The notes under the pieces: model-generated | What the model was told of the DNA's origin: nothing | Seen by the model: the letters and a program-made list of their open reading frames with translations, nothing else | Databases searched by the model: none | Source of the DNA: a virus | Virus record (IMG/VR): IMGVR_UViG_3300009790_000059 | Location: 1 to 25,432 of that record | DNA: 25,432 nt | Strand: one strand, 5' to 3' | Made by a program: the position numbers and the translations under genes | Shown: positions 10,622 to 24,059 of the stretch, piece by piece | Layout: each line of letters starts with the position of its first letter | Numbering within the stretch: the stretch's first letter is position 1

Positions 10622-10790
10622 TTATAAAGCGTTTCTGAGGTACTCACCTATAGTGTGTGACTCAATAGGAGTATTGTTTACTCCACGAGTGCAACCCAAG
10701 AAACGATCATTCATTTTACTTGTGTAAGAAATTTGTTCTCTACCCAATAAAATTGTCCCTGAAGCAGGGAAGTTTGTAGTGTTTGCATAC
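10622..10790 (-). repeat. GxExIxY...RG module, copy 4 (C-terminus of the gp7-position protein)
   Basis: The last residues of the giant protein read SGTILLGREQISYTSKMNDR and then FLGCTRGVNNTPIESHTIGE. Copies of the same pattern lie at about 18800-18955 (GGYIQIDDEICFYTS, then VSRGVSGNST), 18120-18240 (GEFNIGGETITYENK) and 15345-15490 (GDYLNVGDEIVLVQS, then VQRGQKNTVAVNH). The shared pattern is a beta hairpin carrying G-x-E-x-I-x-Y, a gap of about 10 residues, then RG-x-x-x-T and H-x-x-G. It is a protein-level repeat and is not visible as a DNA repeat. Confidence 0.6.
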
Positions 10791-13700
10791 ACTGTCTCGT
10801 TGGTGGCAAGATAACCACCACCACTTTCATTTGGTAGGTCAGCAGTATCTAGCTGACTAACATAATGATTTATGGAAGGATAACCAATATTAAAGATATA
10901 ATCATTGGTTGCAACCATACTCTGTGCTTGATCTTCAAAAGTACGTAACTCTAGATCAAACCCCTCAAACTCCTGAATAGTATATGCGGAAACTGATATA
11001 CCACCAGTAGATAATATATCACCAGTAGTCATGAACTTAGCACCTTCCCACTGAAGGAACCTTGGTCCCAATGTTCCCTGTTCATATACTGTCTGATAGT
11101 TGATTCTACGTAAATCAACAAATCCCATATTATATAATGCTTTTTTCTCCATAGGTAGTTGTATACCTCCACCTCCAATAGGATTACCATCACCAGGACT
11201 ACCATCTGGACGTACTCTTCTGTTACCATACTGATCAATCTCAATAACAGGTAATCTTACTTGAACAATAGTTTCAGTTTCAAGTTCTAAAGTTATTTGT
11301 TTCTCAACAACACTTGGAGCAGGTATAGATGCTATTACTGGTGGATAATAAGTATGTATTTGTTGAGTAATAGGTTTAATATCTACACCAGATGAAGTTT
11401 GTATAATAGCAGTAATCTTCTGCTTAAATCCTTCTGGAGTAGTAATTGCCATATTAAGGTTACCCAACCCAGGACCAACCTCAACACCCTTGAATCTAGT
11501 AACTTCTGAATAAACAGCAACAGGAGATGGATATACAATACTAGGATTGAATTTTAAAGTAAATGTACTCGCAATTTTCCTACCACGCTGTTTAATGATC
11601 TTATATTGCCTTGCTGTAACAATCTTTGGTTCTTGTGTATAACCACTACCAGCATTAGTTAATACAATATCAATAATATGACCATCAGAAACTATTACTT
11701 CTGCTGTTGCCCCACCACCATTTTGATCAACAGGTATAAAATGTAGTACAGGTGTACTATCGTAACCATAAGCAGTTGATCCTTTAGTAACCTTCCATTC
11801 AGATTCTATAAGTTCTATGGTTGCTCTATTCCATGAAATAGAAGAAACCTTACCACCATCAATTTCACATGTTGCACTAAGTCCAACACCCCTTGTGTCA
11901 CCTGCATAATTGGTTGTGATAATTGTCCCAAAGAAATTAGTGGACACTTCATCTTGTGGCACATAGGTCTTAGGATTTACATACCTAGGTAATCCATTAA
12001 TTGTTCTGTAGTCATCTTCACCATCAATCTTAACTATATCACCATCATTTACATTTGATAATAGTCTATTCCTTACATAGAAAGCTTCATCTGCTCTTGG
12101 AGTACCATATAACCACCTAGCAGAATTTCTCTGCATTCTATAGTTCTGATCACTGTCTCTAACAACTGCTATGGTAGTAGTTACACCAGTAAGTTCGTAC
12201 TCATCAGCAAAATCAGAAGATCTAGCAAAGAAAATACTAGAACCATCTAAATCTGGATTATTACCAACCAAAGTAATAATTAACTTCTGATCTGTAGTTG
12301 TATAAGTCTTAACATTACCAAGCATACGCTTAGTTCCACCAATCTTTTGGTATGCTACTTGGAAATAATCATATGATAAACCATACCAATCTCTCCAAGC
12401 ACCAAAAGTATTAGGAGAACCTGCATCACAAGTAAGAATAATTTCATTAAAGTATTGTCCTGCTTCAAAATCATATAAAGTCATAGCAGGATCAATATCT
12501 CTACCATAAAGAATGATAATCTCTACATTGTTTCCTTTCTTTATCTTCTTATTAAATGTAATAGCAGGTCCAACAATATTGTAAGAATCCTCTTCTCTTT
12601 GTAAGACACCATCAATAAAGACCATTGCAAGTCTTGTATCATTTATTATTTTTACTTTTTTATCTGGATCCAATATCAAGTAAGGTCCAGCAGAATCTGC
12701 TTCTGTAATAGAACATCTAAGATAACTACCAATACCATGACCAAAGAACTTCTCAACTGCTAATGGTTCCTGAAGAGTCTTTGTATTCTCTGTTTGATTC
12801 CATATAGGTGCTGTATCAAATATAATTTTATTGGGAACCGCAGTTCTATCAATTGTATATGCAGGATTGTGTTGCAATACTCCACTTAATGCAATAAACA
12901 AATCTTCGTTAACCTGTGTGTCAACACCAGTTCCATCTTCATAATAAAGATCAAATATTTTATTTTCTCCATCAAAATAATCAGGATTAGTTAATGTAGC
13001 AGAGTTTTCTCCATTAGTTAATATTAATGCTAGGACATTAGATAATGTATCTAAAGCGGAAAGAACATCAGCACACTTATTTACAGGATTATCCTGTAAG
13101 ATATGAGTATTCTCATATCCATCTTCTAATTCATTATTAACTGCTTTCTTAGCAAGACCGACAGCATATTGATATGCTTCTACTGCTGCTTCTAATTCGG
13201 AAGTCTTATCACCTGTTGCTGCATCAGTAAGAATTCCAGTTCCAGTTAAAGAAGAAAGAACACCACCAGTATAATACTTCTTACCAGCAGATACTGTCTT
13301 CCAGTTTCCACCAAATCTTATATCATGTGACCATGCATCTAAAATTTGACCTATATCCCTAGAACATTTACCTTCTGTAACATTCCAAGGTAACTCAGGA
13401 TATTTAGATTTTATATGAGCAATAGTCTTATCTACTATAGTACTCCTATTACGTTCAATCTGATTAGCAGAGTCAATCCATCTACCACTTCTTTGGAATA
13501 TGTTCTTAATCTTTTTAAGATGCTTTTGATTTAAAGTATTATCCTTAAATTGGAAATATCTTCCATAGAAAGCAACACTAGGAATAGATTGACCACCCTT
13601 AACTCTTGATCCAAGAGGAGGTTGTGCAAAGGTTATCTTATCTTCATTAACAGTATAAGATATACCTGGTTCTTGTAATATACCATCAAGAGTAATTACA

Positions 13701-16700
13701 AGAGCTTGTTCATTATATGGTCTAATAGAGTTTCCATTAGCATCAACCATATTGAATAATGTTCTTCCTTCTAGATTTCCTTTGTTTGTCAATCCACCAT
13801 CAAAAGGAAGATTTAGGAATACATTACCAGCAGTAATCTCAGCAGTATTGATAGCATCTATAGAAATAGATCCAACACCCTTTTCCACTATAGTTGGTTG
13901 AACAGTTACAATACTTTGAGTTAACTGTCTTCTAGTACTTTCTACAGTAATCTTATTAACTGATGGATCCCATAGTTGTATAACACTAGTCTTAGAAGAG
14001 ACAGTATCACTACTCATCTTAACTTCAGCAGAACTATTAATAAGCACTTCTCCAAATAATTGGAATCCTGCTGGATGAGTAGTTTCCTTAATTAATTTTC
14101 TCCATACATCAATGGAGGTTTCTGATTTAATTGTGTATGAGTAATCTTGATAATAATAAGAATCTGTGATCCTTTGATTGGAATCACCAATCTTACCACT
14201 ATCAGATTTGTAATACCCCATATTATCAAAATATGTTTTAATAACAGGAGAATACTCTGTATATGAAATACTTAAGACATTAGCAGTATTATTCTTAGCA
14301 AGTCCTTTAATTTCTTTATCTTTTCTTAAGATTCCTTGTATTCTATCAACAACTAGAATATTAGATCCACTTATCCAAGAAGTTACTCTTGCCCTTGCAA
14401 CCTCAACAGAACCAGATTTTTGAACTATCGTCTCACCAATACTAAAAGCATCTTTATTAAAATTGGATAAAATAAGAATGTAATTGGAAGTGAAAGTTGA
14501 ACTTAATGTATTATCATTATGATAAGATCCACCATTATTGATTATCTTTATATTCCTAGGTGTACCAATATCAGTACTTGATAAGAAACATTCTACATTT
14601 TTATCAAGTACTCCATCTACATCAAATATTCCTGTTACAATAGGAATCCTTTTATAATCAACTCCAATACTAGTAATTTTAACAGAATTTATTTCACCAA
14701 CAGATGTTAATGATTTAGAAACATATTTGATTGATCCACTGCCATCATTAGTAGCTACTATACCAGTTGAATAAAGAATTTTTGTTGGTGTAACATATAT
14801 TACACTTTTTGTTCCCTGTAAAGGATCGTTGATAACATTTAAATAAGAATTTTCAGAATCAACTACACCATCTCTATCATAGTAATAGTATTTGATATAT
14901 GGTGATGGTTTTCTCTCATCATAAACATTTGTTGTTGTTCTAGATCCATAACCCAATTTTAATTCAACAATATTATTTTGCTCTGTTTTTTCTGGTGTAA
15001 CTAAATTGAAATTAATACTAGGTGATATATCAAACCCAACACCTGCCATTGATGTATGACTTATATCAAATTTATATTTGTAATACTTTTTAATATCAAT
15101 CTGTTTATTTCTTTCGCCATCAATTTCAAAATAATAATTTGCATTAGTAATACTTGAAATTTCTACAAGTCTCTTATCTCCATTAGCGTCTGGTTTATCA
15201 AAGAAAGTAGAACTCAAAGAAAGTTCATTTATAGTAGATAACGTTTCGTTAGTATCCCAAGATATAACCAATTTATGAGTATCTGAATCATAAGAAACTA
15301 CAGAACCATCTTCAACTCCAAATCCTACAGGCAATCCATATCCACCACCATATAAAGTAACAGAAGCACCATTAAAATGATTTACTGCTACTGTGTTCTT
15401 TTGACCTCTTTGAACGGTAAAAACATTTGATGCTCTAGACTGAACTAATACAATCTCATCACCAACATTTAAATAATCTCCTTGTTTTATAGCATTACCA
15501 TTATCAATAACCAATTTTGTGTTATCTGATGCAAATCCAACATGATCAACACGAACTAGTAATTCAGCAGTATTTACATTAGATTTAAATACAACATTAG
15601 TGCCTATACTAAGTTCATCTCCTATTAAATAACCAGTTCCTTTATCAGTTATCTGTATATCATAAACTATATTATCTGATGAAACTTTAATTGTACCTTT
15701 TGCACCTGATCCTTTTCCACCAATCAAGTTTACATTGGTATATTCACCTTGTGTATAATCAGCACCTCCATTTAATATAGATATTTTACCTATTCCATCA
15801 TCAGTGAGAACCCTTGCTATGACAGGGTTTTTAAGGACTACATCTTGATATATTTTTTTCTTTACAATATATGTTGTAGTAGTGTTTGCATCATCAGGAT
15901 CAATATCAATATCAATTGATTCTCCAACACCAACACCATGAGAATTATCTGTAGTTAATAATGCTACATTATCTGTTATATTAAAGATCGGCAAATTTTC
16001 ACTTAAATTTGCAATAGATACAATTTTTGCTCCAGGAGTGTTTAACAAATTGGAACTGGTTAAGAAATAAGTCCCATCAACAACAAAACCAGTATCTGTA
16101 ACCTTTACCTTTACTGTATTTTGTGCAGATGTTGATTCTAATATCTCTCCAGCAGCAATAGGAGCATTTACCCCATCACTTAAAGAAAGAATAGCACCCT
16201 TTGTATAAGTAACATTTATATCAAGTATCAATGATAAGACTTTAGTACTTGATGATAGTACATCAGTACTATTAATAGTACCTGAGACATTTTCTATAGC
16301 AAAGTTCCTTCCTGAAAATACATTACCAACTATCTTACCATTAGCACCAGTTACACCCTGAGTAATAGTATCACCATCAAATAGGTAAGCAGTACTAGAA
16401 AGGTCTACATACAAGACCTTAGATTGCTGAGAATCTATTGATGTTACAGTCTTACCCTTCACAGAGTCTACTTCACCAGAAGCACCATACCCTCCAGTAT
16501 TACTATCATCTATTGATAATTTACAACCAACAGAAAAATTATTACCACTATTTGTTATTAAAGCTGAAGATACACTTCCTCTATTTGTATCTTCAATCTT
16601 AGCTATAGTTAAATCACCATTATTATCAATATCCGATGTTCTTAATCTCTTTGCTTTCTTTGGAATATCTGTCTGTGATATTGAAGAATTGCAATTAGAG

Positions 16701-19225
16701 TCTAAAGGAAGTGAATAATAATTAACTCCTATAATATAAGGAAATACTGGTTTATCTAAACCATCAACGGTAACAAAATATGCATATGTACCATTAGGAT
16801 ATTCTGGTGTTACACAATACCTTCCATTATTAGCATCTAGATGACCACTTTCATCCTCATAAACATAATCATTAATATAGGTTCCAATAGGATCACTAGG
16901 ACCACCATCTCTAGAAGTAAGAGCAGTATAACTAGAATGCATTCTAACAATATCAGAACCTACATCTAGTGGGTTTTCATAACCATAAGCACCATATATG
17001 GGATTGCCATCATAAGCAAACCCTAAGATAGGTGAGTGAGTAGACCCAGTATCATTTGCTCTTAATGTAGTAGGAGAAGCATAATAGGCATATCCAGTTC
17101 CCATTTCAGGTGAGAAGTTTTTAAAGAAATAACCATTATCAGAATCAAGGTTGTTTACATTCTTGAAATACCTATCCTTTCTCCATTCCTTAATTGTGGC
17201 AATAGCGGTTGCACTAGATCCAACAGGAATTACTTGTAATGATATATTATTCTGTGTGTAAAGACTTCCTCCATTGTTTTTAACAAACCCAGTGATTTCT
17301 CCTATATTTGATACTTCAGCAGTAAAATCTGCAAACCTTCCTTTTCCTGCACCATCAATTATTCTAATAATGGGTGGTGATGAATAATACTCACCAGGAT
17401 GATTAATTGTAATACTTGTTACTTCACCTGCTGTAACAACTGGTGTTAGAAGAGCACCTCTACCAGATAAAATTTCAACAGTAGGATTCTCCGTATAATT
17501 ACCAACATCTTCAATACGTATAGATTCAACAACTTGTCCAGCAAGTTTAGCAGTTGCTTTGTTTGGAAGACCATTAACTAATACAAATGGTGCTTTACTA
17601 TAACCATTTCCTCTATTACCTACAGTAATTTTTTGTAGGGGACCATTATAAACTACATCTTCATCCTTATAACCTACAAAAGGTACGCCATTAATTGCAA
17701 TACCAATATCCCTATACTTAGTCTCATATGTCTCAGTAATTGAGATAGCATCTTTTCGTATTATCTTTAATAATTTTTGATCTTGTAAATCTGTAGGTGG
17801 TGTTCCTGTTCCAATATCATGTGATGGAAATCCTGAAGAAGCAATGTAATATCCTTCACCATCTTGATATATTGCTGAAACATTAGAAGGTAAATCTGCA
17901 ACACTAGCAATTTGGGGATCTGTACTGCTGAATATCCATCTTGTGTTATTTTGTGCATCAACGATCTTTACATCATTTGTAATAAAACCAGGTTTTGATA
18001 TTTCAATAACATCATTTGGATTTGAATATGGTACTTTTACAGTAGGTTCTACATTATAGAGAACACCATAAACTAATAGATCAACATCATCAGTACCAAC
18101 ATTAGCTCCATATGTTACAGAAGTACCAATTGGGTAAGTTCCAGTGCCTGACCTAGTTTTTATTACGAATTGATTTATATTTTTATTTTCATATGTTATG
18201 GTTTCCCCACCTATATTGAATTCTCCTTTAGAATCCCATGCAATTGTGGAAAAAACATTAACTCTACCACCAATACCAAGAGAATTATTAAGTTCTTTAG
18301 TTATTTTTGTCCTTGAAGCAATCTTAAACTCACCATTTACAGTTGCTTCATTAAGAATAATCTCATATAACTCTTCACCATCAAATTTACCAGAATATCT
18401 AACATTATCAACTACAGCAGATGCATAAGAACCTTCAATATCCTGTACTATCTTCTTACCAATTAAATTTGTTGGTGTTCCCGAAACAACTTTTACCTTA
18501 AGTGAATATGACTGTATCCAATTAGATTCTGAAGGTTTTAAAGTAAACTCTCTTGGGTATGCAACTTCAGGATCTGTTCCACCAAGATCAACTAAACACT
18601 TAAATATAAATTTAATTGAATTGTCTGTTCCCTTTGATTGGTAAAAAGAACTAATATTTTTAATAAGAGTTCTCTTGTCTACATTACCTTTTAAATACTC
18701 TTCTGGAAAATCAGACAGATACTGCTTTTCAAAACTTTTTATAAATGCATATAAGAATAGATTACTGATATTACTTACTGTAGATCCATCTACATGACTT
18801 GCAGATTGTGTAGTAATAAAAGTACTTTTCTCGTAAAGATCACCTAAAGTACTATTACCACTTACTCCACGACTAACTTCTAAAAATTCTGTATTTGTCC
18901 TACTAGTATAGAAACATATTTCATCATCTATTTGAATATATCCACCTTGCTCTGGAAATGAAGTAGCATCATCTACAACAATAGTAGTATCTGAATCAAG
19001 AACCAATCCATTTAATGTAGTACTTTGTACTAATAGATTTTTTTCATAAAAATCAATATCACGATATGTTGCAAGATTGTTGACAATATCTAATGGTTGT
19101 CCTTGAATCTCTAACTGCTCATAATACTTTTGTACAAACTTACTAAAAAGTTCATACTCTTCGTTAATAAAATCAGGTAATTGAGACTCAATTAAAGTTG
19201 AGACTTTATTCGCAGATTTAGGCAC
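10622..19225 (-). CDS. Giant baseplate wedge protein in the gp7 position, 2867 aa, modular
   Basis: The gene lies between gp6 and gp8, the place of gene 7 in T4, but is nearly three times as long as T4 gp7 (1032 aa); the gp7 assignment rests on position. The start is GTG: its G is the last base of the gp6 stop (TAGTG), a one-base overlap that suggests coupled translation. The N-terminal 75 residues (SANKVSTLIESQLPDFINEE, then FSKFVQKYYEQLEIQGQP) look like the conserved head of marine T4-like structural proteins. Then come four 'GxExIxY...RG' modules (residues about 92-140, 330-370, 1250-1295 and the C-terminus), glycine-tyrosine beta repeats (530-690), a degenerate YHYH-like domain (about 680-850) and three 'DGxLQ' modules (about 1830-2245), the first two separated by a helical segment (about 1893-2085). 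There is no enzyme motif. The frame is intact, with no frameshift. Confidence 0.9.
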   Translation of the reverse strand: MPKSANKVSTLIESQLPDFINEEYELFSKFVQKYYEQLEIQGQPLDIVNNLATYRDIDFYEKNLLVQSTTLNGLVLDSDTTIVVDDATSFPEQGGYIQIDDEICFYTSRTNTEFLEVSRGVSGNSTLGDLYEKSTFITTQSASHVDGSTVSNISNLFLYAFIKSFEKQYLSDFPEEYLKGNVDKRTLIKNISSFYQSKGTDNSIKFIFKCLVDLGGTDPEVAYPREFTLKPSESNWIQSYSLKVKVVSGTPTNLIGKKIVQDIEGSYASAVVDNVRYSGKFDGEELYEIILNEATVNGEFKIASRTKITKELNNSLGIGGRVNVFSTIAWDSKGEFNIGGETITYENKNINQFVIKTRSGTGTYPIGTSVTYGANVGTDDVDLLVYGVLYNVEPTVKVPYSNPNDVIEISKPGFITNDVKIVDAQNNTRWIFSSTDPQIASVADLPSNVSAIYQDGEGYYIASSGFPSHDIGTGTPPTDLQDQKLLKIIRKDAISITETYETKYRDIGIAINGVPFVGYKDEDVVYNGPLQKITVGNRGNGYSKAPFVLVNGLPNKATAKLAGQVVESIRIEDVGNYTENPTVEILSGRGALLTPVVTAGEVTSITINHPGEYYSSPPIIRIIDGAGKGRFADFTAEVSNIGEITGFVKNNGGSLYTQNNISLQVIPVGSSATAIATIKEWRKDRYFKNVNNLDSDNGYFFKNFSPEMGTGYAYYASPTTLRANDTGSTHSPILGFAYDGNPIYGAYGYENPLDVGSDIVRMHSSYTALTSRDGGPSDPIGTYINDYVYEDESGHLDANNGRYCVTPEYPNGTYAYFVTVDGLDKPVFPYIIGVNYYSLPLDSNCNSSISQTDIPKKAKRLRTSDIDNNGDLTIAKIEDTNRGSVSSALITNSGNNFSVGCKLSIDDSNTGGYGASGEVDSVKGKTVTSIDSQQSKVLYVDLSSTAYLFDGDTITQGVTGANGKIVGNVFSGRNFAIENVSGTINSTDVLSSSTKVLSLILDINVTYTKGAILSLSDGVNAPIAAGEILESTSAQNTVKVKVTDTGFVVDGTYFLTSSNLLNTPGAKIVSIANLSENLPIFNITDNVALLTTDNSHGVGVGESIDIDIDPDDANTTTTYIVKKKIYQDVVLKNPVIARVLTDDGIGKISILNGGADYTQGEYTNVNLIGGKGSGAKGTIKVSSDNIVYDIQITDKGTGYLIGDELSIGTNVVFKSNVNTAELLVRVDHVGFASDNTKLVIDNGNAIKQGDYLNVGDEIVLVQSRASNVFTVQRGQKNTVAVNHFNGASVTLYGGGYGLPVGFGVEDGSVVSYDSDTHKLVISWDTNETLSTINELSLSSTFFDKPDANGDKRLVEISSITNANYYFEIDGERNKQIDIKKYYKYKFDISHTSMAGVGFDISPSINFNLVTPEKTEQNNIVELKLGYGSRTTTNVYDERKPSPYIKYYYYDRDGVVDSENSYLNVINDPLQGTKSVIYVTPTKILYSTGIVATNDGSGSIKYVSKSLTSVGEINSVKITSIGVDYKRIPIVTGIFDVDGVLDKNVECFLSSTDIGTPRNIKIINNGGSYHNDNTLSSTFTSNYILILSNFNKDAFSIGETIVQKSGSVEVARARVTSWISGSNILVVDRIQGILRKDKEIKGLAKNNTANVLSISYTEYSPVIKTYFDNMGYYKSDSGKIGDSNQRITDSYYYQDYSYTIKSETSIDVWRKLIKETTHPAGFQLFGEVLINSSAEVKMSSDTVSSKTSVIQLWDPSVNKITVESTRRQLTQSIVTVQPTIVEKGVGSISIDAINTAEITAGNVFLNLPFDGGLTNKGNLEGRTLFNMVDANGNSIRPYNEQALVITLDGILQEPGISYTVNEDKITFAQPPLGSRVKGGQSIPSVAFYGRYFQFKDNTLNQKHLKKIKNIFQRSGRWIDSANQIERNRSTIVDKTIAHIKSKYPELPWNVTEGKCSRDIGQILDAWSHDIRFGGNWKTVSAGKKYYTGGVLSSLTGTGILTDAATGDKTSELEAAVEAYQYAVGLAKKAVNNELEDGYENTHILQDNPVNKCADVLSALDTLSNVLALILTNGENSATLTNPDYFDGENKIFDLYYEDGTGVDTQVNEDLFIALSGVLQHNPAYTIDRTAVPNKIIFDTAPIWNQTENTKTLQEPLAVEKFFGHGIGSYLRCSITEADSAGPYLILDPDKKVKIINDTRLAMVFIDGVLQREEDSYNIVGPAITFNKKIKKGNNVEIIILYGRDIDPAMTLYDFEAGQYFNEIILTCDAGSPNTFGAWRDWYGLSYDYFQVAYQKIGGTKRMLGNVKTYTTTDQKLIITLVGNNPDLDGSSIFFARSSDFADEYELTGVTTTIAVVRDSDQNYRMQRNSARWLYGTPRADEAFYVRNRLLSNVNDGDIVKIDGEDDYRTINGLPRYVNPKTYVPQDEVSTNFFGTIITTNYAGDTRGVGLSATCEIDGGKVSSISWNRATIELIESEWKVTKGSTAYGYDSTPVLHFIPVDQNGGGATAEVIVSDGHIIDIVLTNAGSGYTQEPKIVTARQYKIIKQRGRKIASTFTLKFNPSIVYPSPVAVYSEVTRFKGVEVGPGLGNLNMAITTPEGFKQKITAIIQTSSGVDIKPITQQIHTYYPPVIASIPAPSVVEKQITLELETETIVQVRLPVIEIDQYGNRRVRPDGSPGDGNPIGGGGIQLPMEKKALYNMGFVDLRRINYQTVYEQGTLGPRFLQWEGAKFMTTGDILSTGGISVSAYTIQEFEGFDLELRTFEDQAQSMVATNDYIFNIGYPSINHYVSQLDTADLPNESGGGYLATNETVYANTTNFPASGTILLGREQISYTSKMNDRFLGCTRGVNNTPIESHTIGEYLRNAL
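12495..13744 (-). repeat. Three DGxLQ beta modules, first two separated by a helical segment
   Basis: Within the gp7-position protein, three stretches share a pattern: VITLDGILQEPGISYTVNED (about 13690), FIALSGVLQHNPAYTIDRT (about 12890) and MVFIDGVLQREEDSYNIVG (about 12610). Each is followed by an I-x-F strand and then, in copies one and three, by F/LYGR. Related 'NGILQ' wording occurs in T4 gp10. Between copies one and two (about 12970-13550) lies a helical region of some 190 residues (IGQILDAWSHDIRFGGNW, then LEAAVEAYQYAVGLAKKAV) quite unlike the beta modules on either side. Confidence 0.6.
16680..17190 (-). other. YHYH-like domain inside the gp7-position protein (degenerate signature)
   Basis: Residues about 680-850 contain HSPILGFAYDGNPIYGAYGY, then about 60 residues later LDANNGRYCVTPEYPNGTYA followed by YFVT and FPYIIG. 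This is the order of blocks I recall for the YHYH domain family (a G-[FY]-A-x-D-G-x-P-I-Y-G block, a C/N-G-R block, the YHYH tetrad, then FPY). Here the tetrad reads YAYF, so both histidines of the name-giving motif are gone. Family assignment is by memory of the pattern. Confidence 0.6.
17170..17640 (-). repeat. Glycine-tyrosine beta repeats
   Basis: Four units of about 35-45 residues follow one another: NRGNGYSKAPFVLVNG, DVGNYTENPTVEILSG, HPGEYYSSPPIIRIIDG and NNGGSLYTQNNISLQVI. Each is linked by a strand of the type 'G-x-V-x-x-I-x-I'. Single units occur in gp8 and several in the 2816-aa protein, so this is a shared building block of the three large proteins. Confidence 0.65.
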
Positions 19226-21027
19226 TACTCTTTATACGCAACGAATTTACTATTTGACACATCTACATCCAAATATGCCTCACGTTTTACTTCAATATCT
19301 TTATTAGCAGGTTTGACTCGCAATTCAACACGATTATCAGAAAAACTACTTTTTAGAATAGTGAAATCATAAAGTTGTATTTCACCTTTAGTATAATCAA
19401 CAGTTCCTATTGAATCATTCAATAGAACCTTTTCACCACTCAAGGAATCTAATCTATATAGGACTATTTTCCCATTTCTATCTTCTAGGTATGATGTATA
19501 ATTAGGATACTCAAAGACTGTCATACCAGTAGATGAAACTACAGGATTATCACAATCTATAAAGAAAGGATTTTGATAACACACTTCATAATATGAGGAT
19601 GAATTTATTTGTGCTATAAAATCTTTCCTTATAGTAATGTTAGTATCATTTGAATTGATAGAACGATCTGCATTATCAATAACACTAATAAATTTACTAT
19701 ATCTAAATTTACCATTAAATTTTTCTGTGCCAGAAGATAATAGATATTGCTGAACTCCAGTAGCAGCCTTTGCTGCCATCTCAGCAGGAAGTAACTTACT
19801 CTTTGTGGAATTGTAGTATATCTTACTATTCAACTCAACATATAAAATAGATGGATCAACAAATTCTGGTTTAATTGAAGCAACAGTATACTTCTTCAGT
19901 TCATTTGTTAATTCATTCTTAGTAAAAGATGATATTGATGGTGCATCTGTTGGTTTAATTGAAAGGAATACCTTACCATATGCAGGTGGTACTTGGTCTT
20001 CACCACCAAATACAATAATATCACTCACTGATGGATATATGTTTCTAACAATAGAAGCAAAGTCATTTGAAGTCACTGCTCTATTTTGAGATCCGTAGAA
20101 CTTAGGAGCATTATATTTGATATTATCAATACTCTCAATGTCTGCTCCACCAAGTGCATTCTGTATGACTGTCAATTCTGTTACATTATATGGTATTTGT
20201 ATCAATGAATTGCTTTCATTGACAATAGTTCCATTAAATCTAAAAGTTGATGCTCCATTGGTAACGTTACCATTTGTTACAACTGCACTTAATTCAACAA
20301 CTTGATTATCCTCAAGTTTTTTCCCTAATACACCATCACCAAAGAAGATTTCGTATTTCTCATCTTCTATTTCATTTACAAAATATACCTTATCATCTGA
20401 AGTGACATCTAATATATTATTTGCTTTGATGTACAGTTCAGATTCTGTTGAATTAATAGATTCATAAACCCTTACCTTAAGTGTACTAATATCAGTAGAA
20501 GGGTTATCAATAATAAATCTTTGATTGCTTGCACTAGAATCAACAGTTGTCAATGAGGTTATAAGAGATCCTTCGTAAATAGGTAAATTAGCAAACGATA
20601 CAGTACCATTAGTAACAATCTCTTTATAATCTTCTGTTACAATAAAACGATATAAACTACCATCATAGTTAGTAAGAAATCCACTACCTGCTTTTATAGT
20701 GACAGATACAGGAGAACTATTACTAAATGTAAGACTTAAGTTAACTGCTGCCTTAGGTGCAGTCTTTGATTTGGGAGAATACCCCAGTTGCTTTGCTAGA
20801 GAGACTACGTTATCCCTTAGAGACGCTGAATCAAGGAATAGTTCATTCACTACCATATTGGTATTGAACGCTGTGTAGTACGTATTATACGCCAATACAT
20901 CTAACAGTTGACTTATAGCAGATCCTTCAAAATCATAGTCAGTGAAGTCTGTTTGTGCTCTCATATAGTCTTTGAGAGCTGTCTTGATATCAATAAAGTC
21001 TAAGTTGTTTAACTGGGTGTATGGCAT
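19225..21027 (-). CDS. gp6: Baseplate wedge subunit gp6 (Baseplate_J / gp6 family)
   Basis: The 600-aa protein is close to the 660 aa of T4 gp6. The N-terminal part (LNNLDFIDIKTALKDYMRAQ, then YDFEGSAISQLLDVLAYNTY and LRDNVVSLAKQLGYSP) carries the features of gp6/gpJ-type wedge proteins: a helical start, the 'E/DGSAIxQLLDVLAYNTYY' stretch and the 'R-x-N-V-V-x-L-A-K-x-x-G-Y' stretch. The C-terminal third has the usual GEDQVPPAYGKVFLSIKP strand. gp6 dimers form the ring that joins wedges in the T4 baseplate, together with gp25 and gp53. The gene follows gp25 with a one-base overlap (TAATG) and is followed by the giant gene with another one-base overlap (TAGTG), so the three are almost certainly translated from one message. 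Confidence 0.95.
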   Translation of the reverse strand: MPYTQLNNLDFIDIKTALKDYMRAQTDFTDYDFEGSAISQLLDVLAYNTYYTAFNTNMVVNELFLDSASLRDNVVSLAKQLGYSPKSKTAPKAAVNLSLTFSNSSPVSVTIKAGSGFLTNYDGSLYRFIVTEDYKEIVTNGTVSFANLPIYEGSLITSLTTVDSSASNQRFIIDNPSTDISTLKVRVYESINSTESELYIKANNILDVTSDDKVYFVNEIEDEKYEIFFGDGVLGKKLEDNQVVELSAVVTNGNVTNGASTFRFNGTIVNESNSLIQIPYNVTELTVIQNALGGADIESIDNIKYNAPKFYGSQNRAVTSNDFASIVRNIYPSVSDIIVFGGEDQVPPAYGKVFLSIKPTDAPSISSFTKNELTNELKKYTVASIKPEFVDPSILYVELNSKIYYNSTKSKLLPAEMAAKAATGVQQYLLSSGTEKFNGKFRYSKFISVIDNADRSINSNDTNITIRKDFIAQINSSSYYEVCYQNPFFIDCDNPVVSSTGMTVFEYPNYTSYLEDRNGKIVLYRLDSLSGEKVLLNDSIGTVDYTKGEIQLYDFTILKSSFSDNRVELRVKPANKDIEVKREAYLDVDVSNSKFVAYKE

Positions 21028-21419
21028 TATCTCGTCCTAGCTAGGAAGAACTGTATATTGGATGGTGGTGTGTCTACACCCTTTAATGTATATGTCATCT
21101 CAACATCAAAACCATTATCATTGAAATTTGGTATACATCTCAAATCTTCAATAATAACTCTAGGTTCGTAAGTTGATATTGTTGATTCTATATTTCTTTT
21201 GACTTGTGCAGCAGTAGCATAATCCAATGGTTCAAATAAGAATTTCCTTATATTTGAACCGTATTCAGGATTAAATACTTTTTCTCCTTTATTTGTCAAT
21301 AGCAAATTTACTATTGCCTGTTTAACAGCAGAAGCATCCCTACTAACAACTAAGTCATTAGTAACGGGATGCTTTTTAAAAGTAATATTGATGTCCTTAA
21401 AGGACAGTGCTTCCACCAT
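21027..21419 (-). CDS. gp25: Baseplate wedge subunit gp25 (lysozyme-like fold)
   Basis: The 130-aa product matches the size of T4 gp25 (132 aa). It has the family's core: VKQAIVNLLLTNKGEKVFNP, then YGSNIRKFLFEPLD and RNIESTISTYEPRVIIEDL. The glutamate in the 'F-E-P' block is the conserved one of the gp25/GpW family. gp25 joins gp6 and gp53 in the inner wedge of contractile-tail baseplates and is also conserved in type VI secretion (TssE). The ATG has no strong SD. A near-consensus late promoter box lies about 28 bases upstream, and the stop overlaps the gp6 start by one base. Confidence 0.95.
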   Translation of the reverse strand: MVEALSFKDINITFKKHPVTNDLVVSRDASAVKQAIVNLLLTNKGEKVFNPEYGSNIRKFLFEPLDYATAAQVKRNIESTISTYEPRVIIEDLRCIPNFNDNGFDVEMTYTLKGVDTPPSNIQFFLARTR

Positions 21420-21446: not shown

Positions 21447-21454
21447 TATTTAGA
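21447..21454 (-). promoter_or_regulatory. Probable late promoter box upstream of gp25 (one mismatch)
   Basis: The minus strand reads TCTAAATA, one change from TATAAATA, in the 39-base gap between the oxygenase stop and the gp25 start. Position and gap suit a promoter that starts the wedge-gene transcript, but a single near-match could be chance in AT-rich DNA. Confidence 0.45.
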
Positions 21455-21458
21455 CAGT

Positions 21459-22055
21459 TTATACAGCGTATTGATATCCGTTCTTACTCACTACCTCAGT
21501 CTCTGCAATATTAAATGCCAAAGTTATTCTTTCCTTATCTTCTTGAAATGGCATTACACAGTGTACTATATCACTAGGGAACATAATCATAGTTCCATTC
21601 TTGCCTTCATACTCACAACCAAGATCAAAGAATTTAGTTGGGTGATTATGATTCTTGTAATAGATCACACCTGATACAAACCCTGAATGATTATGCGGAG
21701 GATTGTCATCTCCTTTATATGCAAAGTTAGTCCATAGGTCATATTTGTCAAAATAACCAGGCCAATTCTTCAATTTGAACTCACGGAGATTTCTTCCTTT
21801 CCCCCAATGCTCATGCGTTAATCTTAATACCCATGCCAACCAAAAAGAATCTTCAATCAAACGTGCAGGTACACCACATTGATATGAATTATGCTTTCTT
21901 CCATCACTAGAAAGATATCCAACATTCTCATGTGCTCGTATATCTGCTAATGGGTGGTTCTTCACATTGATACTACAATCAACCCAATAATCAATTTCTT
22001 CTTGTATAGATTCAGGAATATCAAATATTAATATATTATCCCTTAATTTTTTCAT
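21459..22055 (-). CDS. 2OG-Fe(II) oxygenase superfamily protein
   Basis: This 198-aa protein has a C-terminal half typical of the putative 2OG-Fe(II) oxygenases of marine T4-like phages. NPPHNHSGFVSGVIYYKN (H121, H123) supplies candidate metal ligands. MIMFPSDIVHCVMPF (H165) gives the distal histidine, and ERITLAFNI (R176) the arginine expected to hold 2-oxoglutarate. The first site reads H-N-H where the classic triad has H-x-D/E, so the exact acidic ligand is unclear; D145 is another candidate. Such enzymes hydroxylate proteins or small molecules, and the substrate here is unknown. Its ATG overlaps the stop of the SET-domain gene (ATGA), suggesting coupled translation and possibly joint action. 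It lies just before gp25, inside the late structural cluster. Confidence 0.85.
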   Translation of the reverse strand: MKKLRDNILIFDIPESIQEEIDYWVDCSINVKNHPLADIRAHENVGYLSSDGRKHNSYQCGVPARLIEDSFWLAWVLRLTHEHWGKGRNLREFKLKNWPGYFDKYDLWTNFAYKGDDNPPHNHSGFVSGVIYYKNHNHPTKFFDLGCEYEGKNGTMIMFPSDIVHCVMPFQEDKERITLAFNIAETEVVSKNGYQYAV

Positions 22056-22348
22056 ACTTTATAAAAGGTATATTTTAAAAACAATTCTTCACCCTTCTTG
22101 ATATCCTTAATCGTCTTCATATAGTAAATTTTACCCCATCCTTGATCATCCGACCATTTAACACAATTGGGGTCTTCAGAGTGATTTACGAACCCTCCTA
22201 GAGGTGTTCTCATTATCTCGTCATCCACTACCACGTGGGATACGCCAAGATACATCATAGCAGGTATGTCTTCTTTCGCAAAAAGACCTTGACCTGCTAT
22301 GGAACTATCCTTTACATGTAATTCATTGGGTAAAGCTTGATACATCAT
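22052..22348 (-). CDS. Compact SET-domain protein (putative protein lysine methyltransferase)
   Basis: This 98-aa protein contains the ordered SET motifs: GQGLFAKEDIP near residues 19-29 (the GxGxxA start of the fold), GGFVNHSEDPNCVKW at 51-65 (the N-H-S-x-D-P-N-C block that forms the pseudoknot and binds S-adenosylmethionine) and KKGEELFLKYTFY at 84-96 (GEEL plus the catalytic tyrosine, probably Y93). The layout matches the small viral SET protein vSET of chlorella virus PBCV-1 (119 aa), though this one is shorter because the central insert is nearly absent. SET proteins transfer methyl groups to lysine side chains. A phage has no histones, so the target may be a host protein (for example ribosomal) or a virion protein; this is inference. 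The next gene overlaps its stop by ATGA. There is no clear SD; ATG codons 1 and 2 are both possible starts. Confidence 0.85.
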   Translation of the reverse strand: MMYQALPNELHVKDSSIAGQGLFAKEDIPAMMYLGVSHVVVDDEIMRTPLGGFVNHSEDPNCVKWSDDQGWGKIYYMKTIKDIKKGEELFLKYTFYKV

Positions 22349-22384: not shown

Positions 22385-22522
22385 TTAATTACCCTGTCCT
22401 CTGTACCTCTTTTTACGCCCATTTCGTGCTGTCGCACTAAGCTTCGTATTCTGCGAATTACCTTGACGTGTCTTTTTAGGTTTTGGTGGTGTGTGATCAC
22501 CATTACTGGAATATAATGCCAT
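22385..22522 (-). CDS. Small very basic protein, 45 aa
   Basis: The ATG at 22522 opens a 45-codon frame ending with TAA. The product starts MALYSSNGDHTPPKPKKTRQ and ends NGRKKRYRGQGN. It has about 11 Lys/Arg and only one acidic residue, and no predicted membrane segment or coil. It fills nearly all the space between the PAAR and SET genes, and its upstream spacer has a GAGAG element. I recall similar tiny basic proteins among marine T4-like phages, but no function is known to me. The charge suggests nucleic-acid or acidic-protein binding, which is inference only. Confidence 0.75.
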   Translation of the reverse strand: MALYSSNGDHTPPKPKKTRQGNSQNTKLSATARNGRKKRYRGQGN

Positions 22523-22548: not shown

Positions 22549-22878
22549 TCACACTCCACCAGTTCCTGCAAGTACTGTGAGGGATGATGAAGCAATTACT
22601 CCAACACCTGATCCAGGAGCAATAGTGTCACCAAGTACTGAGATAGGTTTCTTACCTACAAGAACACTCGGAACACCTGGTCCAATTATGGGTTTGGTAA
22701 GGGAAACACAAACAGGGGGTATACCTGATAGGTAGGGTGCTGTTAGATCACCCAATCTTGCACAAGGTTTACCTTCTACCAATACAGTCAACTCACCAGG
22801 TGGAGCAATTGCTGTTGCTGGTTGACATAGATCATTCGTAGTTACTACATCACCTACTCGTGTTACTCCGCCTGGCAT
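22549..22878 (-). CDS. PAAR-repeat protein, tail spike tip (gp5.4-like)
   Basis: The 109-aa product is made of Gly/Pro/Val-rich beta repeats: VLVEGKPCARLGDLTAPY near residues 32-49 and VLVGKKPISVLGDTIAPG near 72-89, with the closing VLAGTGGV. This 'V-x-V-x-G-K-P-x-x-x-x-G-D' repeat is the PAAR pattern. PAAR proteins cap the central spike of contractile tails (T4 gp5.4) and type VI systems, where they sharpen the tip that pierces the outer membrane; His/Cys residues often bind a metal. A strong SD (AGAGGAG, 8 bases before ATG) supports the start. The 71-aa frame upstream ends inside the first codons of this gene. Confidence 0.9.
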   Translation of the reverse strand: MPGGVTRVGDVVTTNDLCQPATAIAPPGELTVLVEGKPCARLGDLTAPYLSGIPPVCVSLTKPIIGPGVPSVLVGKKPISVLGDTIAPGSGVGVIASSSLTVLAGTGGV

Positions 22879-23528: not shown

Positions 23529-23536
23529 TATTTATA
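23529..23536 (-). promoter_or_regulatory. T4-type late promoter box (start of the late operon)
   Basis: The minus strand reads TATAAATA, an exact T4 late consensus, in an intergenic stretch about 58 bases before the 100-aa gene. Upstream of it lies the terminator of the accessory module, so this box marks the border between that module and the late structural block. The PAAR, SET, oxygenase and wedge genes lie downstream on the same strand. Confidence 0.75.
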
Positions 23537-23611: not shown

Positions 23612-23639
23612 CAAAAAACCCTGTCATTTCGGACAGGGT
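23612..23639 (-). terminator. Rho-independent terminator after the 64-aa gene
   Basis: On the minus strand an 8-bp stem (ACCCTGTC with GACAGGGT, 6-base loop) is followed directly by a run of T residues. It begins 11 bases after the stop codon of the 64-aa gene. It separates the accessory module from the late promoter downstream. Confidence 0.85.
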
Positions 23640-23851: not shown

Positions 23852-23880
23852 ATTATAGAGGATGTGGGTGAGTGAATCAA
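23852..23880 (-). promoter_or_regulatory. Sigma70-like promoter for the 64-aa gene
   Basis: On the minus strand a -35 element TTGATT (23875-23880) and a perfect -10 TATAAT (23852-23857) are separated by 17 bases, the optimal spacing. The -35 overlaps the stop codon of the HicA-like gene. Transcription would start near the ATG at 23845, so the message may have almost no leader. The host-type promoter suggests early expression by unmodified host polymerase. Confidence 0.65.
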
Positions 23881-24059
23881 GTGAGCGTTACACTTTGTAA
23901 CTGTCTCTTGATTAGGACGCTTGCCCAGTCACGGGTGCTATATGGAATTGTGACTTGCTTGCTTGTATTCTCATGAGAATAAATGTGGTGCTTGCCGCCA
24001 TGACGTGTAAGCACCCAACCCAAAGACTTAGCAAGTTTTGCAAGTTGTTTACTAGTCAT
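23877..24059 (-). CDS. HicA-like RNA interferase-type protein, 60 aa
   Basis: The 60-aa product has the order of features of the HicA/YcfA family: a short N-terminal helix (MTSKQLAKLAKSLGW), then GWVLTRHGGKHHIYSH, with H24 in the place of the catalytic histidine of the G-S-H-H block. A strand follows (KQVTIPYSTRDW), then a C-terminal helix (VLIKRQLQS). HicA toxins are small double-stranded-RNA-binding-fold RNases that cut mRNA and are held in check by HicB. No HicB-like frame is seen on either side. The start overlaps the stop of the 42-aa gene (ATGA), so the two are probably co-translated. In a phage the protein may act on host mRNA or have lost toxicity; this is inference. Confidence 0.75.
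   Translation of the reverse strand: MTSKQLAKLAKSLGWVLTRHGGKHHIYSHENTSKQVTIPYSTRDWASVLIKRQLQSVTLT

Follow-up and report, generated by a model that had tools for sequence, protein, structure and literature searches.

A 98-residue stand-alone SET-domain protein carried by marine phages in a variable cargo slot, with a sister family in bacteria

The window, meaning the whole 25,432-nucleotide stretch of DNA that was analyzed, belongs to a T4-like marine phage and is catalogued as a virus fragment in IMG/VR; the nearest annotated records for the region under study are cyanomyoviruses. The gene of interest (22052–22348, minus strand, ATG start) encodes a 98-residue protein of the phrog_28741 family, hereafter mini-SET, and was called from PF00856, phrog_28741, an AlphaFold2 (AF2) model and dN/dS. 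Upstream of it lie a PAAR spike-tip protein (22549–22878, minus; PF05488, 1.1e-08) and a 45-residue Lys/Arg-rich open reading frame (22385–22522, minus). The latter (MALYSSNGDHTPPKPKKTRQG...KKRYRGQGN) has no Pfam match and is often unannotated. Downstream are a 198-residue 2OG-Fe(II) oxygenase (21459–22055, minus; PF13759, 1.4e-12), whose gene overlaps the mini-SET stop codon by four bases, and the baseplate wedge proteins gp25 (21027–21419, minus; PF04965, 1.3e-15; phrog_261) and gp6 (19225–21027, minus; PF21379, 9.9e-18; phrog_219). A preliminary description of this DNA had placed the gene between the spike tip and the wedge genes. The flanks are as described, with PAAR upstream and gp25 downstream, and the 45-residue frame and the oxygenase gene also intervene. 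The small basic frame and gp25 form the left and right borders, respectively, of the cargo slot discussed below. Elsewhere in the window, the late region encodes a 60-residue HicA toxin-like protein (23877–24059, minus; PF07927, 40.4 bits against a cutoff of 27). The 2867-residue protein at the gp7 position (10622–19225, minus) contains a YHYH domain (7.7e-29) and a weak yet above-cutoff phycobilisome-protein match at residues 1897–1962.

The PAAR, basic, mini-SET and oxygenase genes form a unit headed by a T4-type late promoter motif, TATAAATA (23529–23536, minus), which lies 59 bases ahead of the first gene. Just upstream of this motif is a terminator-like hairpin (23618–23639, minus) with an eight-pair stem followed by a T run. 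The cyanophage late promoter has been described as NATAAATA (PMC2984593). A CTAAATA motif 28 bases ahead of gp25 (21447–21453, minus) may serve the wedge genes as a late promoter of their own. The window contains five ATAAATA/CTAAATA motifs, every one of them on the minus (coding) strand, and within 1.2 kb upstream of SET genes such motifs are found on the gene's strand at 44 of 112 loci versus 4 of 112 on the opposite strand. Judged from such motifs, late expression of the copies residing in the gp25 slot is plausible, and copies at a second site, next to nrdB, may differ in timing. The late control earlier ascribed to the gene is likewise a plausible reading of the motif at the head of its unit, with a scope confined to the window copy.

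The identification of the SET domain is secure at the profile level. The 98-residue protein matches PF00856 at 9.9e-12 in the Pfam profile search (45.6 bits; gathering cutoff, 22.4), as do all 27 relatives in the first alignment, and phrog_28741, whose function is given as "unknown" in PHROGs, covers it over its full length (4e-57). A lack of any SET hit is what the preliminary description would have counted against a SET protein, and the search came out the other way. The three core blocks pointed out in the preliminary description could each be located. GQGLFA (residues 19–24; 22277–22294, minus) is the SAM-binding GxG block, and NHSEDPNC (residues 55–62; 22163–22186, minus) supplies the SAM-binding Asn-His and aligns with FINHSCEPNC of MLL1. 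GEELFLKY (residues 86–93; 22070–22093, minus) ends in Tyr93 at the catalytic position and aligns with GEELTYDY of MLL1. The protein consists of a small SET domain on its own and lacks pre-SET and post-SET regions. Its gene is under purifying selection: when the window gene was compared with its relatives in 65 pairings, the median dN/dS was 0.085.

The AF2 model, computed from 44 aligned relatives, has a mean pLDDT of 92.7 and a pTM of 0.82. Foldseek identifies 263 matches in the PDB at E ≤ 0.001, and the best ones are SET domains. TMq values of the model are 0.70 for MLL1, 0.75 for PFL0690c and 0.72 for vSET, so that the comparison with vSET proposed in the preliminary description returns a SET fold for the predicted structure. 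The fold match spans the whole length of the protein, and mean pLDDT is 66 in the C-terminal block, which includes Tyr93, at the end of the protein where the SET pseudoknot would close around the active site; the active-site end is therefore the least certain part of the model. The closest predicted viral fold is BFVD A0A218ML49, a 971-residue SET protein of an uncultured virus (TMq 0.79, 32% identity). This entry suggests that the mini-SET domain may exist in fused form, too, as part of a long protein, and the fusion partner could name a target.

None of the 171 distinct relatives departs from S15, G21, G35, H38, R47, N55, H56, N61, or E88, and G19 is found in 170 of them. The Asn/His/Tyr core, whose loss in homologues the preliminary description had raised as an argument against a SET enzyme, is retained: Tyr93 is present in 170 of the 171 relatives, the remaining row having a gap there, and N55 and H56 are present in all, although their invariance, like that of the residue 48–55 block, is partly by construction because the search patterns required part of this stretch. 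The invariance of S15, G21, G35 and H38 is unaffected by these patterns. A family signature, LGx[ST]H...R[TL]PLGGF[IV]NH, sets the mini-SET proteins apart from generic SET domains.

Relatives are encoded by the cultured phages P-SSM7 and P-RSM6, both with Prochlorococcus NATL hosts, and by the pelagiphage Kolga, in all of which they are annotated as hypothetical; another is found in the single-cell-derived marine virus AG-345-P14. In IMG/VR, searching with a single sequence recovers 288 relatives, and searching with an alignment recovers at least 570 stretches that encode them. A further 54 loci occur in bacterial and archaeal species genomes, and many of these are located on long Flavobacteriaceae, Porticoccaceae or SAR86 contigs; bacterial genomes usually hold one clear SET copy (seven genomes checked). 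In a tree of 68 sequences, which is limited by the small number of alignment columns, a supported branch (96/82) separates most phage members from most bacterial ones, and the labels change four times. The members on the unexpected side may come from viral contigs that were binned into MAGs. The bacterial chromosomal members are a sister clade to the phage members, and the mini-SET is widespread and strongly conserved in marine phages and bacteria rather than a one-off.

SET domains are already known from viruses, bacteria and tailed phages. The closest parallel in size is vSET (PBCV-1 A612L, PDB 1n3j/3kma), likewise a stand-alone minimal viral SET domain. It comprises 119 residues versus 98, shares 26% identity with mini-SET in the Foldseek alignment, and matches the family profile at 7e-10, with 87 profile positions set against 101 vSET residues (5–105). 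The central insert of mini-SET is the shorter one, in keeping with the earlier remark that the protein has almost no insert and falls below vSET in length. His38 and Arg47 are specific to the mini-SET family, unlike vSET. The viral enzyme methylates histone H3 K27 of its host (PMC4023394). That host is a eukaryotic alga, whereas the hosts of mini-SET are bacterial and offer no such histone target. SET domains of the MLL/KMT2 type provide the best sequence and fold matches and have the FxNHSxxPNC and GEEL..Y blocks in common with mini-SET, which, unlike them, has no post-SET, little SET-I and no known partner subunits. Legionella LegAS4/RomA and Chlamydia NUE are SET proteins of bacteria, as are some of those described here. 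These proteins are secreted and, as effectors, target eukaryotic chromatin. In contrast, mini-SET is a single small domain of free-living marine bacteria and their phages, and its match to the NCBIfam AnkI/LegAS4 family is weak (23 bits against a family cutoff of 550). Other SET proteins of tailed phages include ORF62 of Stenotrophomonas phage Ps15 and proteins of uncultured Caudovirales; the latter are longer (128–263 residues), and the sources consulted give a function for none of these phage proteins. We found no description of cyanophage or pelagiphage SET proteins in the open literature, where one phage paper merely lists a SET open reading frame, nor any description of the mini-SET family there.

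The 134 distinct viral copies are distributed over the gp25 slot (101 copies), the nrdB site (15) and other positions (18). The P-SSM7 relative follows nrdB, and that of Kolga adjoins an AAA gene. Further copies are found in a UDP-sugar dehydrogenase operon, at a primase-polymerase gene, at a UvrD helicase/DNA polymerase A pair, in a halogenase neighborhood and in a DNA methylase region. Conversely, most phages that have the slot do not carry a SET gene in it. Between the 45-residue gene and gp25, Syn9 and Bellamy have unrelated genes of unknown function and P-SSM4 has a putative oxygenase. The 45-residue gene itself is present in 449 phage records, which come almost exclusively from cyanophages and include genomes both with and without SET; SET is present in six records. 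Because the contents of the slot differ between phages and SET is found elsewhere too, the site is best described as a variable cargo slot bordered by late genes. A conserved baseplate linkage fails at the 33 of 134 distinct viral loci that lie elsewhere, and we have discarded this linkage as a functional clue. One marine phage contig (L145:5505-7572) carries an AIR synthase (purM-like) and a SAICAR synthetase (purC-like), then SET, with overlapping gene ends, and then gp25; this is a purine cassette in the gp25 slot.

The bacterial members have unrelated neighbors of the housekeeping type, as in the arrangements argG-argC-SET-proC, fabA-fabB-SET and sodium symporter/GDSL lipase-SET-glycosyltransferase. 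A constant neighbor that would name the target was sought in these bacterial contexts, and no common partner emerged. In a Flavobacteriaceae locus (L099:3830-8212), SET is located inside an operon, argG-argC-SET-proC-aminotransferase, whose genes overlap or nearly abut. The preliminary description took the position in a baseplate cluster under late control as making a virion or late host target plausible. As evidence for a virion target, the position does not hold up, given the variability of the slot and the presence of relatives at other sites, including bacterial chromosomes that have no baseplate.

On balance, we lean with modest confidence toward a catalytically competent, stand-alone minimal SET methyltransferase that is carried as late phage cargo and acts on a conserved host protein rather than on a part of the baseplate. 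SAM would be bound through the GxG block and the Asn-His pair, and Tyr93 would line the active site. In the window phage, the enzyme would be made late, from the unit that starts at TATAAATA, and its substrate would be a conserved protein in the infected cell. That mini-SET is catalytically active, is expressed late and acts on a host protein is what we infer from the evidence above. A target of the host type is favored because a sister family with the same invariants is retained in cells, which have no baseplate, and because the phage copies move between sites. The invariants common to phage and bacterial proteins (S15, G35, H38, and R47) suggest, as far as sequence comparison goes, a substrate class that is common to cells and phages. 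Being separate clades, the phage and bacterial members could also differ in target.

The best surviving alternative, which we nonetheless consider unlikely, is that mini-SET methylates a late phage protein during assembly, either a baseplate or spike component or the 45-residue Lys/Arg-rich protein. The preference of the phage copies for the gp25 slot, which accounts for 75% of the distinct viral copies, would fit a late virion target, too. The late motif at the head of the SET unit is in line with it, as is the neighboring 45-residue protein, which is very basic and conserved at the slot. However, the SET genes of P-SSM7 and Kolga are away from baseplate genes, the bacterial relatives have no such targets, and unrelated cargo fills the slot in other phages. 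The excess of 45-residue genes over SET genes among phage records likewise counts against it. As a dedicated SET substrate, the 45-residue protein was rejected, since it is widespread in cyanophages without SET; it is retained only within this alternative.

Somewhat less probable still is that mini-SET is not a lysine methyltransferase and instead modifies another residue or a small molecule, or serves as a SAM-binding regulator. The label of lysine methyltransferase given in the preliminary description is an assumption. In canonical SET enzymes, the Tyr of the GVYMF-type motif lines the lysine channel. The profile alignment places GVYMF of MLL3 opposite GISHV of the family, so that the channel position, Tyr in MLL/KMT2-type domains, would be Ser/Thr in mini-SET (S37), followed by the invariant His38 and later by the invariant Arg47. 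The near absence of SET-I and the absence of a post-SET domain point the same way. Yet position 37 is assigned from sequence and profile alignment, in a region where the domain is least conserved, and the GxG, NH and Tyr93 elements are all kept, as they are in active SET enzymes.

Finally, the overlap of the mini-SET and oxygenase genes recurs among the relatives. A 2OG oxygenase gene lies within 200 bases of SET at 35 of the 134 distinct viral loci; the two genes share a strand in every case, and most of the pairs have overlapping stop and start codons. These SET-adjacent oxygenases fall into four 2OG clusters, on either side of SET and at several sites. That the two form a pair, a protein writer and a hydroxylase/demethylase working on the same target, is nevertheless the least probable of the three alternatives and in our view improbable: an oxygenase within 1.5 kb upstream in the gp25 slot is at least as common at loci without SET (15 of 33) as at SET-bearing loci (23 of 85; Fisher p = 0.08, with the trend running against a partnership), cyanophages normally carry numerous 2OG oxygenases (PMC3037559), and an adjacent oxygenase is found at 1 of 53 bacterial-genome loci, on a contig that may itself be viral. 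With no positive association in this gp25-slot control, we rejected the partnership that recurrent overlap had suggested, and the two genes look like co-cargo. As an aside on annotation, P-SSM4 PSSM4_077 (L249:5608-6162) is annotated as denV/DNA endonuclease V, yet it matches 2OG-FeII_Oxy_3 above cutoff, and PHROG 274, which carries the name DNA endonuclease V, likewise matches the oxygenase of the window. The endonuclease V label on proteins of this type is likely a propagated misannotation, judging from these matches.

Returning to methylation of a host protein, we tentatively advance a more specific version, which we consider possible but less likely than not: the mini-SET proteins of marine phages and bacteria may constitute a distinct subfamily with a reorganized active site, in which the invariant His/Arg pair replaces the channel tyrosine. 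Their substrate would be a conserved bacterial protein, to which phages direct methylation anew late in infection. If true, free-living bacteria and the viruses that infect them would have a SET-based system of protein methylation unconnected with chromatin. To our knowledge, work on SET enzymes has dealt almost exclusively with writers of chromatin marks and with effectors directed against eukaryotic hosts. The analysis further allows phrog_28741, of unknown function in PHROGs, to be annotated concretely, along with the hypothetical proteins of the cultured phages P-SSM7, P-RSM6 and Kolga. Mini-SET is one of the smallest known versions of this enzyme type, and a strongly selected 98-residue SET protein among marine cyanophages, with a sister family in bacteria, represents a small, testable system without chromatin.
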